A model generated the notes under the pieces. That model did not search any database. It had not been told where the DNA came from and saw nothing but the letters and a program-made list of their open reading frames with translations. Source: an uncultured archaeon (GTDB lineage: Archaea > Thermoproteota > Bathyarchaeia > Bathyarchaeales > Bathycorpusculaceae). Taken from it: a stretch of 49,550 bases of DNA. The stretch is from contig CALJDG010000031.1 in assembly GCA_938023865.1 (NCBI GenBank), positions 1 to 49,550 of the forward strand. Reading direction: 5' to 3'. A program made the translations under genes and the position numbers. This document shows positions 1-25,049 of the stretch, piece by piece; within the stretch, counting starts at the first letter, position 1, and every line of letters starts with the position of its first letter.

Positions 1-208
1 ACTTGCTTGGTCTTTTCCTTTCTGATTCTATCCATCCCTTCTTTTCTAGGCTGTTTAGGACATGGTAAACTTTGGAGTAAGGTATCTGCGCTCCGTAGCT
101 TATTTGTTGGGCTGTTAGTGCGCCTTTTTCTAGAAGGAGCAAGTATGCATTTGCCTCGTAGTCTGTTAATCCAGCCTTTCTGAGCATTGTTTTTGTTTTT
201 TCGCTCAT
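1..208 (-). CDS. TrmB-family HTH transcriptional regulator (partial, N-terminus only)
   Basis: Only the first 69 codons are in the window; the rest lies beyond base 1. Translation from the ATG at 206-208 starts MSEKTKTMLRKAGLTDYEAN and continues with AYLLLLEKGALTAQQIS and a recognition-helix segment IPYSKVYHVLNSLEKKGWI. This is the standard winged-helix N-terminus of archaeal TrmB-type regulators (helix, 'GLT..EA..Y..L...G', HTH). The effector domain cannot be seen, so the ligand is unknown. The gene is divergent from the tetraether lipid synthase gene, with 80 bases between the starts, so it may control that gene and itself; this is inference from position only. Confidence 0.8.
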   Translation of the reverse strand, partial: MSEKTKTMLRKAGLTDYEANAYLLLLEKGALTAQQISYGAQIPYSKVYHVLNSLEKKGWIESERKRPSK

Positions 209-21289: not shown

Positions 21290-22171
21290 TTAGAGCTTTA
21301 ACGCAGCTCTTAGCCTAGCCGACCTAGCCCTAGGATTTCCCGCAACCTCCTCTTTAGTTGGCTTAACAGGTTTTTTCGTCAAAATTTTAACAAGGCCTTC
21401 TTTAGCCTTCTCCCTTAGAAAATTTTTGACAATACGGTCCTCTAGTGAATGGAAAGAGATGACCACAAGCCTACCCCCCTTATTCATTATGTTAAGGGCT
21501 TGAGGTAAAGCCTTCTCCAAATTCTCCAGCTCATTATTTACAGCTATCCTCAAAGCTTGAAAGGTCTTAGTGGCGAAATGGATTCGTCCCCTATGATACC
21601 ATGACGGAGTAGCCCTCTCAATAGCCATAACTAAATCCACAGTGGTCTTTAAAGGTCTGGATCGCACAATTTCCTTTGCAATTCTTCGCGCAAATCTCTC
21701 CTGCCCATAAACTCTCAAAATCCTCCAAATATCTCTCAAACCCCAAAAATTCACTATGGCCTCAGCTGTTAAGGGATTTTCAGGGTTGTATCTCATATCA
21801 AGCGGCTCATCTCTAAGGAAAGAAAATCCCCTGCCACTCTCCCCTAAATGCCAACTTGACAAACCCAAATCAAACAAAACTCCAGAGATATGATGCCTAA
21901 AGGCATATCTGTCAACTATATCACTTAGGTCTGCAAAATTACCGCAAACAAGGATTAAACGTCTTTCATAGGCTGTACATTTAACTTTTCGTTTAAGCCT
22001 CCCCACAATTACTGGGTCAGCATCGACCCCTAAGACTCTACCAAAAGGCCCTGTTCGCTCTAAAATAGCCACAGCATGACCACCCATCCCAACAGTACAA
22101 TCAACAAAATCCTCACCGGACCTTGGGTCAAGAAAATTTAAAACTTCTTCCTTCATAACCGGCAGATGCAA
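21290..22171 (-). CDS. rsmH: 16S rRNA (cytosine-1402-N4)-methyltransferase RsmH (MraW)
   Basis: SAM-dependent methyltransferase that modifies the P-site cytosine 1402 of 16S rRNA in bacteria. The full bacterial signature is present: MHLPVMKEEVLNFL, DCTVGMGGHAVAIL (SAM motif I), GVDADP, GVLFDLGLSSWHL, RGFSFLRDEPLDMRY, FQALRIAVNNELENLE, VVISFHSLEDRIVK and the terminal PRARSARLRAALK. The frame is open to 22186, but the TTG at 22169-22171 gives the canonical N-terminus and has GGTG 8-11 bases upstream. The gene is nearly universal in bacteria and rare in archaea, so ancient transfer is likely. No mur or fts genes accompany it. Confidence 0.93.
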   Translation of the reverse strand: MHLPVMKEEVLNFLDPRSGEDFVDCTVGMGGHAVAILERTGPFGRVLGVDADPVIVGRLKRKVKCTAYERRLILVCGNFADLSDIVDRYAFRHHISGVLFDLGLSSWHLGESGRGFSFLRDEPLDMRYNPENPLTAEAIVNFWGLRDIWRILRVYGQERFARRIAKEIVRSRPLKTTVDLVMAIERATPSWYHRGRIHFATKTFQALRIAVNNELENLEKALPQALNIMNKGGRLVVISFHSLEDRIVKNFLREKAKEGLVKILTKKPVKPTKEEVAGNPRARSARLRAALKL

Positions 22172-22287
22172 ACTTTTACACCACAAACATTACATAATTT
22201 TCTAACCGCCACCATACACTAAATTAAAAGACAAATTCCTTTTTAGTATTTGCCATTCATTCAAGATCGTAAATAAAATTTCAAAGG

Positions 22288-22464: not shown

Positions 22465-23883
22465 TTATACTTTTGATTTTTCATGGGCCTTTTTTGACAA
22501 GTAGACGGTTGCTATAATAAAAATAGAAGACGCTACTGCAACAATATATAAGAAGCTCTCGAAATTTCGTTTAAAGGATTGATGAGCCGAACCTATGTCA
22601 TGCAGCTGCTTTTTAAGTTTGTCAAAATCAGCTTGAAGGCTGCTAAATAGCTTATTTACGTTATCTAATTTGTTAAGGAGGTTAGAATAATCAAACAGCA
22701 ATTGATCGTGTAGGTCAATGAGCTCTGAGTAAAATATTTTGACCGAACAATCGTTGTAATATTCTATGTATAAGTAAAAGTTTTCAGGGTCCGCTACATC
22801 AAGGAATGTTATGTTAATCTCTTTTTCGTTAACGAGAACGTTATGTATTTTTTTCATCAAATTTTTGGGAATAGTAATTCTACTGAAACCAGCGCTAGCA
22901 TTAAAAGTTATTGATGCGCTTTTTGTTTCAACAACATTCTTGAAAGCAAAATTAGTGATGGTTGAGTTGGATATTACAATAACGTAATGAGTGCCCCCAC
23001 TAAAAGATATAGCAAACGAATAAAATTTTCCCATTAAAGGATAATAATCCTTGTCCATATAGGTTATATTGTGAGGGACGTCTCCTATCCCGTCCTTGTT
23101 TAGGTCTCTGCCCTCGTATTCATCCCAGTAATTTCCTTTACTATCGTGGCTCCAAATATTGGTTGTCTGTTCAGCATAAACATCCTTTGTGTTAGCTATG
23201 AAATTATTATAATAGAAAGCGTTATTATTGCTATTGTAAGAAATTCGGACACCATAACCATTTTGTTGAAAGGCGTTTTCGTAAATTATATTATCAAGTG
23301 AATTATAGTATATATCAATACCAAAATAGTTATTTGCAAAGGTGTTTTCATAAATTTTATTTCCGCTCGCAGAAAACATTTGCATACCGATATTGTTAGA
23401 TGATATTATATTTCTACATACATGATTCCCGCTGGAGTATTCTATCTTAATCCCTATATTATTGTTTATTATAATGTTATCGCTAATAACGTTTCCAAAG
23501 TATCCTACGTAAATCCCAAAACCTTGCATGTGACTATTAGTTATGGTGAAACGGCTGATAGTCACTTGAGAAGCCATTATTACGATTACGTTTCCGGAAC
23601 CACCACCATTTAATATGGTGTTTTCTCGATCTTCTCCTATTAACGTGATGCCTTTTTTGATTATTATGTTTTCCTGGTATGTCCCGCCACGCACAAAAAT
23701 GGTATCGCCATGACTAGCACTATTGATAGCTTCCTGTATCGTGGGATAGTCATCTGGGACTCTTAATGTTGATTGGCTAGCATACACAAGCATTCTACTA
23801 CTTTTAATGGTCAAAACTGAAACTAAATATATGCATAAAAGCAAAAATAATAAAGTCAAGGTTGTTTTTGACGTGTTTATCAC
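22465..23883 (-). CDS. Secreted, membrane-anchored parallel beta-helix (NosD-like) protein
   Basis: 472 residues. An N-terminal hydrophobic signal (about 6-36) precedes the typical opening VPDDYPTIQEAINSASHGDT, then 22-24-residue N/I/G-rich repeats of a right-handed beta-helix (about 60-240), closing with NYWDEYEGRDLNKDGIGDVP as in archaeal NosD/copper-binding-like surface proteins. The C-terminal third has a beta-rich part, a heptad-like coiled coil (about 385-435) and a transmembrane span (about 443-462) with a basic tail, so the helix faces outside. Start is GTG, overlapping the upstream stop as GTGA. Role unknown; carbohydrate or surface binding is plausible. Confidence 0.78.
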   Translation of the reverse strand: MINTSKTTLTLLFLLLCIYLVSVLTIKSSRMLVYASQSTLRVPDDYPTIQEAINSASHGDTIFVRGGTYQENIIIKKGITLIGEDRENTILNGGGSGNVIVIMASQVTISRFTITNSHMQGFGIYVGYFGNVISDNIIINNNIGIKIEYSSGNHVCRNIISSNNIGMQMFSASGNKIYENTFANNYFGIDIYYNSLDNIIYENAFQQNGYGVRISYNSNNNAFYYNNFIANTKDVYAEQTTNIWSHDSKGNYWDEYEGRDLNKDGIGDVPHNITYMDKDYYPLMGKFYSFAISFSGGTHYVIVISNSTITNFAFKNVVETKSASITFNASAGFSRITIPKNLMKKIHNVLVNEKEINITFLDVADPENFYLYIEYYNDCSVKIFYSELIDLHDQLLFDYSNLLNKLDNVNKLFSSLQADFDKLKKQLHDIGSAHQSFKRNFESFLYIVAVASSIFIIATVYLSKKAHEKSKV

Positions 23884-24500
23884 CTCTCACTGGTTTTTGA
23901 TAATACTTTTCCGAGCATGATAGAGCATAAGATTGATAGCGAAAAAGCTGCGGCGAAAATGACGTGATTAATGATAGGTTGCATTAAACTCGAGAGCATA
24001 ATGACGTAGAAAATTAACGTCATAAAGGCTAGTATATATATTTTCAGTTTTACGCCACTAGTTCGTAATGTTGTTATATTCTGTTGGTTAATAACTGATT
24101 TTATTTTTTCTATCGCCTGTTGTATTTGCTCGTCGGTAGCAAATGATACTTGATTTTTTTCGATATCTATAAATTTAAAACTTGAAAGGGCGTATCGTTG
24201 TAATTCCCAAGGCTTTGTTTTGGGCAAAATTTTTGTTACTCCGCTTTTTTCCATTTTTTTGAGCACTGTTTGAGTTTTGCGTATAAGTTGAACGTCATCC
24301 GCCTTCTCTTCGCCGTGTATTTTTTTAATTAGATCTTTAACATTTGGAAGATAAAACTCCGTTTGGAAACTTGCTATCGCCTTTGAGAGTTCGTATTGGT
24401 ATTCCCCTTCTCGTAAGCGTATACCAGCAATTTTGTAATCTGAGGTTAAAGCTTCTTGCATAAACTGTATTTCTGTAAGTGTCAGCTTATGCTGTGACAT
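23880..24500 (-). CDS. Unrecognised two-span membrane protein, co-transcribed with the NosD-like gene
   Basis: 206 residues, no family recognised. Residues 1-140 are soluble, helical and charged, with a stretch resembling a winged-helix half (LIRKTQTVLKKMEKSGVTKI, then LPKTKPWELQRYALSSFKF). Two hydrophobic spans follow at about 150-170 and 177-197 with a short basic end. AGGAG lies 5 bases before the ATG. It overlaps the NosD-like gene by 4 bases, so the pair is translated together. A candidate membrane-tethered regulator or scaffold for the surface protein; this is inference from layout only. Confidence 0.6.
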   Translation of the reverse strand: MSQHKLTLTEIQFMQEALTSDYKIAGIRLREGEYQYELSKAIASFQTEFYLPNVKDLIKKIHGEEKADDVQLIRKTQTVLKKMEKSGVTKILPKTKPWELQRYALSSFKFIDIEKNQVSFATDEQIQQAIEKIKSVINQQNITTLRTSGVKLKIYILAFMTLIFYVIMLSSLMQPIINHVIFAAAFSLSILCSIMLGKVLSKTSER

Positions 24501-24510
24501 TTTATCTCCT

Positions 24511-24535
24511 TTTCAACAGTTTCAATTGAAATAAT
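24511..24535. repeat. 25-bp element, copy 1, containing palindrome TTTCAATTGAAA
   Basis: Copy 1 of a 25-bp direct repeat (TTTCAACAG, then palindrome TTTCAATTGAAA, then TAAT). It ends 11 bases from the ATG of the minus-strand membrane protein, between its SD and a TATA-like CTTTATATTA (about 24531-24541 on the minus strand), the usual position for a repressor operator. Confidence 0.7.
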
Positions 24536-24597
24536 ATAAAGGGAGCCTATATATTTATTTATGCATTTCCATATGCTGCTCGTGCGTTTTTCAAGTT

Positions 24598-24622
24598 TTT
24601 CAACAGTTTCCATGGAAATAAT
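24598..24622. repeat. 25-bp element, copy 2, containing palindrome TTTCCATGGAAA
   Basis: Copy 2, 87 bases from copy 1 and identical at 23 of 25 positions. The two differences (A to C and T to G) are at symmetric positions, so the 12-bp palindrome stays perfect. It lies immediately upstream of a TATA-like TTTTAAAG (24631-24638) for the HTH gene, suggesting that one regulator acts on both divergent promoters. Confidence 0.7.
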
Positions 24623-24662
24623 TCATATTCTTTTAAAGTGGTTAAAGAAGATGATGGTTAAA

Positions 24663-25049
24663 ATGGAGATAGCTTTAGGAAGAAAGTGTTCTCCGGTTTA
24701 TGAAATGTACGTTTCTAGTGTGCCTATTGTTGGAAAAAGATATCGTAGCTCATTTGAAATTATTGCGTCGATACTTGAAGTGACTTGTGGGAAGATAAGC
24801 CGTTTTGCCATTGCAAACCGTCTAAAAACAAACTATATGTTGCTCCACAAGTATTTGGATTATCTAGTTAGGATTGGTTTTATTGATGTGGAGTATGATA
24901 GTAGACAAATTTTTTATAGGACTAGCCAGAGGGGGATTGAATTTTTGAGGCTGTACCATAATTTGTTGAAAATGCTTTCGGACGCGATCGAGGCAAAAGT
25001 TCATGTCAACATTGCCTATCAGCGTACCAACTTAAAGGGTGGTGGATAG
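24663..25049 (+). CDS. Winged-helix transcriptional regulator (archaeal HTH_45-like)
   Basis: 128 residues from the ATG at 24663. The segment YRSSFEIIASILEVTCG, then ISRFAIANRLKTNY (recognition region), LLHKYLDYLVRIGFIDVEY and YRTSQRGIEFLRLYHNL is the typical archaeal winged-helix pattern, helix-HTH-wing-helix. The open frame extends back to 24561, but TTTTAAAG at 24631-24638 fits a TATA box for a leaderless start at 24663; ATGs at 24651 and 24654 are alternatives. Divergent from the membrane-protein/NosD pair, with the duplicated palindromic element between them; autoregulation and control of that pair is the simplest reading. Confidence 0.75.
   Translation: MEIALGRKCSPVYEMYVSSVPIVGKRYRSSFEIIASILEVTCGKISRFAIANRLKTNYMLLHKYLDYLVRIGFIDVEYDSRQIFYRTSQRGIEFLRLYHNLLKMLSDAIEAKVHVNIAYQRTNLKGGG

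Follow-up and report, generated by a model that had tools for sequence, protein, structure and literature searches.

In the 49,550-nucleotide stretch of archaeal DNA analysed here (the window), a 25-bp element occurs twice between two divergently transcribed genes, as TTTCAACAGTTTCAATTGAAATAAT (24511–24535, + strand) and TTTCAACAGTTTCCATGGAAATAAT (24598–24622, + strand), which raises the question of whether the two copies are regulatory sites acting on the genes beside them and, if so, what reads them. The copies lie 87 bp apart and are identical at 23 of 25 positions, and both differences are symmetric inside their 12-bp palindromes. The duplicated element with its two symmetric differences had been pointed out in an initial annotation and is present as described, as are the flanking genes, one encoding a membrane protein of 206 aa (− strand, start at 24500) and one encoding an HTH protein (+ strand, 24663–25049). 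The features of the locus are as follows.

22465–23883, − strand: NosD-like, parallel beta-helix protein bearing hydrophobic segments at its N and C termini (Pfam NosD, 1.6e-23; hydropathy), directly downstream of the membrane-protein gene
23880–24500, − strand: 206-aa protein with a predicted winged helix (about residues 26–120), a long helix and two C-terminal membrane helices (AlphaFold2, VIA, hydropathy)
24505–24510, − strand: Shine-Dalgarno-like AGGAGA of the membrane-protein gene, adjoining O1, read from the sequence
24511–24531, + strand: O1 (copy 1), 21-bp core TTTCAACAGTTTCAATTGAAA, kept in 24/24 membrane-gene loci; the 25-mer runs to 24535
24532–24540, − strand: membrane-protein gene, proximal TATA-like box TAATATAAA (read as TTTATATTA on the − strand), directly adjoining the O1 core
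24566–24569, + strand: OM, a possible third, partial site (TTTC alone kept), 55 bp from O1
24598–24618, + strand: O2 (copy 2), 21-bp core TTTCAACAGTTTCCATGGAAA, intact in 23/24 loci and degenerate in genome G117; the 25-mer runs to 24622
24631–24637, + strand: HTH gene, TATA-like box TTTTAAA, 12 bp past the O2 21-bp core
24663–25049, + strand: HTH_45/Sso10a-like winged-helix protein, 128 aa (Pfam HTH_45, PF14947, 4.4e-11)

Two conserved sites at divergent promoters

Within the window, the 25-mer pattern has two matches when up to three mismatches are allowed, against a mean of 0.00 in 100 dinucleotide shuffles. In the 1.65-Mb, 80%-complete assembly, a Bathyarchaeota MAG, TTTCNNNNGAAATAAT matches at the O1 and O2 places only, as does the O1 consensus TTTCAAYAGTTTCARYTGAAA with up to two mismatches. 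The looser consensus common to both copies, TTTCAAYNNNNTCNANNGAAA, gains one extra genome match, within a coding frame, and the same consensus with a GAMA ending gives a fourth, on contig C7.

At family level, 19 of the 90 genomes have relatives of the 206-aa membrane protein, at 20 loci; at class level the figures are 23 of 256 genomes and 24 loci. The 20 loci were used to define the sites and the four later ones served as a held-out test, with stretch L084, which contains the one analysed as L096 (G143), not counted a second time. A contig search with the membrane protein returned two loci, both from Candidatus Bathyarchaeota. O1 and O2 are both present in all 20 defining loci, and in the held-out loci O1 was found in 4/4 and an intact O2 in 3/4; the one mismatch in a held-out O1 is in G143, where GTCAA replaces TTCAA at an otherwise invariant base. 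Across loci the O1 consensus is TTCAAYAGTTTCARTTGAMA, and O2 in most loci is TTTCAAYNNNGTCTAYNGAAAAAA. On average O1 carries 1.59 bits of information per base and O2 1.28, compared with 0.28–0.66 in the flanks, promoters included. The search of genome and relatives proposed at the outset thus gave no further copy within two mismatches in the 80%-complete assembly, O1 in every membrane-gene locus and an intact O2 in all but one.

Each site stands at a fixed register to its own TATA-like box. In most of the 24 loci an AT-rich, ATAAA-type block lies directly beside O1, and in 23 of them TTTAAA, TTTCAA or TTCMA follows O2 after 12–14 bp. The earlier placement of one copy downstream of the membrane-gene box and the other upstream of the HTH-gene box therefore holds and extends to the relatives, and the suggestion that the operon encodes a surface-type protein is borne out by the NosD-like gene, which follows the membrane-protein gene in 20/20 defining and 4/4 held-out loci. 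A full HTH_45-type gene is linked divergently in 23/24 loci, the absence being in G117. Next to the operon, at 21290–22186 on the − strand, the archaeal contig carries a MraW/RsmH-type rRNA methyltransferase (Pfam, 1.6e-92), of a family known as bacterial.

The near-identity of the two copies in the window is a local extreme, because the copies are less alike in every other locus: the 21-bp cores agree at 19 of 21 positions in the window's genome (G000), the highest of all loci, with 16 the next highest and 11–16 the range in the other 23 of the 24. O1 and O2 thus look like two related yet distinct sites, and on the comparative evidence both appear to be real cis elements.

Two loci and one duplication depart from the common arrangement. 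In G117 (L092, 1220–1390) the HTH gene consists of its first 14 codons followed by a stop, and O2 is degenerate; O1 and the membrane-protein gene are intact. Relatives with the same genes and no element were looked for, and none occurred among the 24 loci, G117 having kept O1. G117 appears to be a natural loss of the regulator. The best HTH_45 match elsewhere in its genome scores 68 bits, and the linked HTH genes in G074, G142 and G000 reach 105–136; score alone cannot separate linked HTH genes from paralogues, since the linked genes of G143 and G145 score 64 and 63 bits. G087 (L076, 1418–1521) carries an orphan O1–O2 pair with a spacing of 85 and one change in O1 at an otherwise invariant base, and within the 3 kb examined there was no recognisable membrane or HTH gene near it. 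This pair shows that the sites are able to stand without the genes; it may be a decaying remnant. In G044 the whole membrane/HTH/NosD locus occurs twice (L042 and L052), with spacings of 64 and 97.

A wider regulon was considered and rejected: with up to two mismatches the O1 consensus occurs in 25/90 family genomes, and in the 30 loci examined from that search the matches outside the membrane-gene promoters lie inside open frames of at least 80 codons, except L076 (G087). The looser consensus has matches in 44/162 order genomes, the coding status of which was checked for part. A search for viral copies of the sites gave no relatives, and one stretch matched a pattern.

Dyad, spacing and helical phase

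The symmetric differences between the copies had been read as selection for a perfect 12-bp palindrome, and this did not survive comparison. A perfect palindrome occurs in 7/20 O1 and 1/20 O2 sequences (for G071, locus L041, copy 2 was taken from its third site), the single O2 case being the window's own, and the commonest O1 form, TTTCAGTTGAAA (9/20), is already imperfect. When all dyad centres were tested on O1, centre 15.5 was best, with a mean of 0.76 of pairs complementary, and centre 11 was second, at 0.59; for O2, centre 11 was best, at 0.62, and 15.5 reached 0.50. Centre 11 corresponds to the outer arms TTTC-N13-GAAA, which are kept in O1 and O2 alike. The dyad common to both copies is, on this count, probably TTTC-N13-GAAA, wider than the 12-bp palindrome.

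In the 23 intact loci, O1 and O2 are separated by 54, 55, 64, 66, 75, 85, 86, 87, 88, 95, 96, 97 or 107 bp. Taken modulo 10.5, the distances of all 23 fall within 0.5–4.0, and the best period is 10.6 bp, with a mean vector length R of 0.87; the two sites therefore stay on one face of the helix. G117 was excluded, having a spacing of 62 and a degenerate O2 (with its best-scoring O2 the phase is 9.5, outside 0.5–4.0), and G087, with its in-phase spacing of 85, lies outside the tree. On a membrane-protein tree that is weakly resolved (5/21 inner branches well supported), the spacing class must have changed at least 10 times. Simulating indels along this tree for the 23 related loci, with sizes of 4–39 bp that are our own assumption, gave p = 0.014, 0.007, 0.003 and 0/3000 for 8, 10, 12 and 15 expected large indels, respectively. 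A uniform null on 16 hand-picked lineages gave 0/20000 and one on six class centres p = 0.00015; we prefer the tree simulation because these nulls either count related loci as independent observations or depend on centres picked once the loci had been grouped. Compared across loci, the sequences establish the conservation of the sites, their fixed register to the TATA-like boxes and the change of distance by whole turns.

Between the two sites, TTTC is found at +54..57 from O1 in 13 of the 15 long-spacing loci, against a shuffled mean of 0.61, for an interval picked post hoc and loci that are related; several long-spacing loci have a longer match there, TTTCAAYAGTTTC. The arrangement thus resembles O1 followed by a partial OM at five turns, with O2 whole turns further on. 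G071 (L041) has a full-length third site, TTTCAACTTTGTCAACAGACA, between O1 and O2, at an offset of 68 from the membrane-gene start.

Two candidate regulators

The AlphaFold2 model of the 206-aa protein has a pLDDT of 83.7. Its residues 26–120 align to winged-helix proteins (MarR, DtxR, RosR, PefI and others) with VIA Z scores of 8.3–9.6, only slightly above the 7–8 typical of unmatched models, and an rmsd of mostly 2–3. A Pfam scan of the members of the family matched no HTH family in most of them, and the winged-helix call is of moderate strength because Foldseek gave no match at E ≤ 0.001. Hydropathy peaks near residues 150 and 178 recur in 20/20 orthologues and coincide with long helices in the model. 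The prediction is thus of a winged helix, at that moderate strength, in a protein that ends in two membrane helices. Mean column identity in its putative recognition helix (residues 70–85) is 0.89, compared with 0.59 for that of the HTH protein, and R74, Q77, T78, L80, K81, K82, E84 and K85 are invariant in 20/20. Because O1 hardly varies, even between loci of different HTH classes, the membrane protein ranks at least level with the HTH protein as a candidate reader.

The divergent HTH protein matches HTH_45 (PF14947) at 43.1 bits, above the curated cut-off of 25.5, and 20/20 orthologues match at E ≤ 0.01; for the NCBIfam Sso10a subfamily NF053610, it scores 42.1 bits against a cut-off of 60. 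Its model as a monomer has a mean pLDDT of 79, rising above 90 in the winged helix, and possesses the winged helix and long C-terminal helix of the Sso10a fold. Foldseek placed Sso10a2 and Sso10a1 as its best matches (4hw0, E 2e-5; 1r7j, E 2.3e-4), with TM scores of 0.78–0.87 by target, and the profile of the protein also matches Sso10a chains by sequence. The model thus indicates that the divergent regulator has an Sso10a-like fold. It is one linked copy among several paralogues, with seven matches in G000. The HTH proteins of G002 (L047, 2244–2678) and G044 (L042, 248–646) have nearly identical C-terminal halves and differing N-terminal halves, which suggests recombination between HTH genes of different species.

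Readings of the locus and comparison with known systems

We consider it somewhat probable (about 0.58) that O1 and O2, with the frequent partial middle site, are operators of a locus-specific autoregulatory switch controlling the surface beta-helix protein. The binding protein, the sign of its effect and the signal are what we infer. The same-face spacing suggests one protein complex touching both sites, and a winged-helix regulator encoded at the locus would bind them on one DNA face as a single complex, by looping, bridging or wrapping. In archaeal promoters, a protein occupying the interval from the TATA-like box to the ribosome-binding region would obstruct TBP/TFB or polymerase, and activators often sit just upstream of the TATA-like box. 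The regulator would repress the membrane-protein/NosD operon from O1, which fills the gap from the TATA-like box to the start of the membrane-protein gene, and would adjust the HTH gene from O2, which immediately precedes the HTH promoter. The main reader would be the membrane-anchored winged-helix protein, slightly the more likely of the two encoded there, with the Sso10a-like protein as a partner or second reader. Because the sequences of O1 and O2 differ (11–16 of 21 identical in 23/24 loci), the two sites may also be read by different proteins. The G087 pair, standing without recognisable membrane or HTH genes, counts against the switch. A more elaborate form of the proposal, which we put forward tentatively and would not expect to hold in full, is an archaeal envelope-control module of a kind not yet described. 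It would join a small winged-helix protein tethered to the membrane, a beta-helix protein at the surface and a DNA-bridging protein like Sso10a with an array of two or three operators that selection holds on the same face, and the membrane-held regulator would loop two divergent promoters.

The same sites could instead, in line with the initial annotation, be served by the divergent Sso10a-like HTH protein alone, repressing the membrane operon through O1 and activating its own gene through O2. A divergent autoregulator is the usual arrangement, the HTH gene is present in 23/24 loci, and G117, left with 14 HTH codons, has a degenerate O2; the Sso10a-like fold also fits, since PMC4941522 describes DNA bending for Sso10a proteins and bridging for Sso10a1. 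Yet G117 keeps an intact O1 without an HTH gene, O1 is identical (TTTCAATAGTTTCAGTTGAAA) despite different HTH classes (the short form in G072 and the long form in G001, G050 and G142), and the recognition helix of the HTH protein is conserved at only 0.59, and we regard this explanation as unlikely. Less likely again is a pair of independent operators, one for each promoter, with the 10.6-bp phasing due to chance or to some other phasing, whether by the promoters or by a nucleosome-like protein. Each site does keep a fixed register to its own TATA-like box, with DNA of variable length between the sites, and the tree has just 10 spacing-class changes; against this stand a phasing p of 0.014 or lower in the tree simulation and the partial middle site at +54..57 in 13/15 long loci. 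That the copies in G000 are the most alike (19/21; next 16) is what a functionless recent local duplication or mobile repeat, its copies alike by descent, would give. Conservation rejects that origin, which we hold to be highly improbable: both sites lie at both promoters in 23/24 loci, their consensus sequences differ, and the 80%-complete assembly shows no further copy within two mismatches.

Descriptions of cis-regulatory sites in Bathyarchaeota are scarce so far. A literature search found no description of this locus, in sources that mostly did not include subscription journals, and full-text papers sought on transcription factor binding motifs in Bathyarchaeota included none on the subject as judged by title and the start of the abstract. 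The locus provides an operator pair with phylogenetic support, a rule of helical phase that can be put to the test and two candidate regulators, one of Sso10a type and the other what would be a minimal membrane-anchored regulator.

Archaeal Lrp-type dual regulators bind multiple sites on the same face and repress or activate according to position; Pfam scans showed neither an Lrp/AsnC HTH nor a RAM domain for either protein here. Closer in fold are the Sso10a proteins, in which the winged helix leads into a long C-terminal helix, as it does in the divergent protein. Dimerisation through an antiparallel coiled coil and DNA bridging also mark that subfamily; the present model is of the monomer. 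PMC4941522 describes Sso10a1 and Sso10a2 as acting without apparent sequence specificity and leaves it unclear whether Sso10a proteins are specific regulators or chromatin proteins. The HTH protein here, in contrast, adjoins specific conserved sites, and it falls below the NF053610 cut-off.

Transmembrane transcription regulators (TTRs), counted across prokaryotes in PMC10269533, are recognised by a DNA-binding domain and at least one transmembrane region in one chain; the 206-aa protein is predicted to have the latter, and its candidate for the former is the winged-helix fold of moderate strength at residues 26–120. In ArnR and ArnR1 of Sulfolobus acidocaldarius, an N-terminal HTH precedes a pair of C-terminal membrane helices, and binding requires two inverted-repeat boxes together (PMC6396743). 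ArnR and ArnR1 differ in having HAMP/sensor parts, which in the ArnR family lie between the HTH and the membrane helices; none was detected in the 206-aa protein, HAMP being absent from the best 25 of 29 Pfam families matched (20 members, E ≤ 0.5). The ArnR boxes, TCGAC-N5-GTCGA (PMC6396743), are also unlike the TTTC-N13-GAAA of the present sites, which do not fit the ArnR box. Unlike those of ArnR, the sites here lie at two divergent promoters, with O1 in the repressor position rather than upstream. The likeness to ArnR/ArnR1 and TTRs lies in the predicted order of parts, the paired inverted-repeat boxes at the promoter and the proposed control of a surface structure (PMC6396743 and PMC10269533), and the ArnR/ArnR1 precedent supports the reading of O1 and O2 as operators of an autoregulatory switch.
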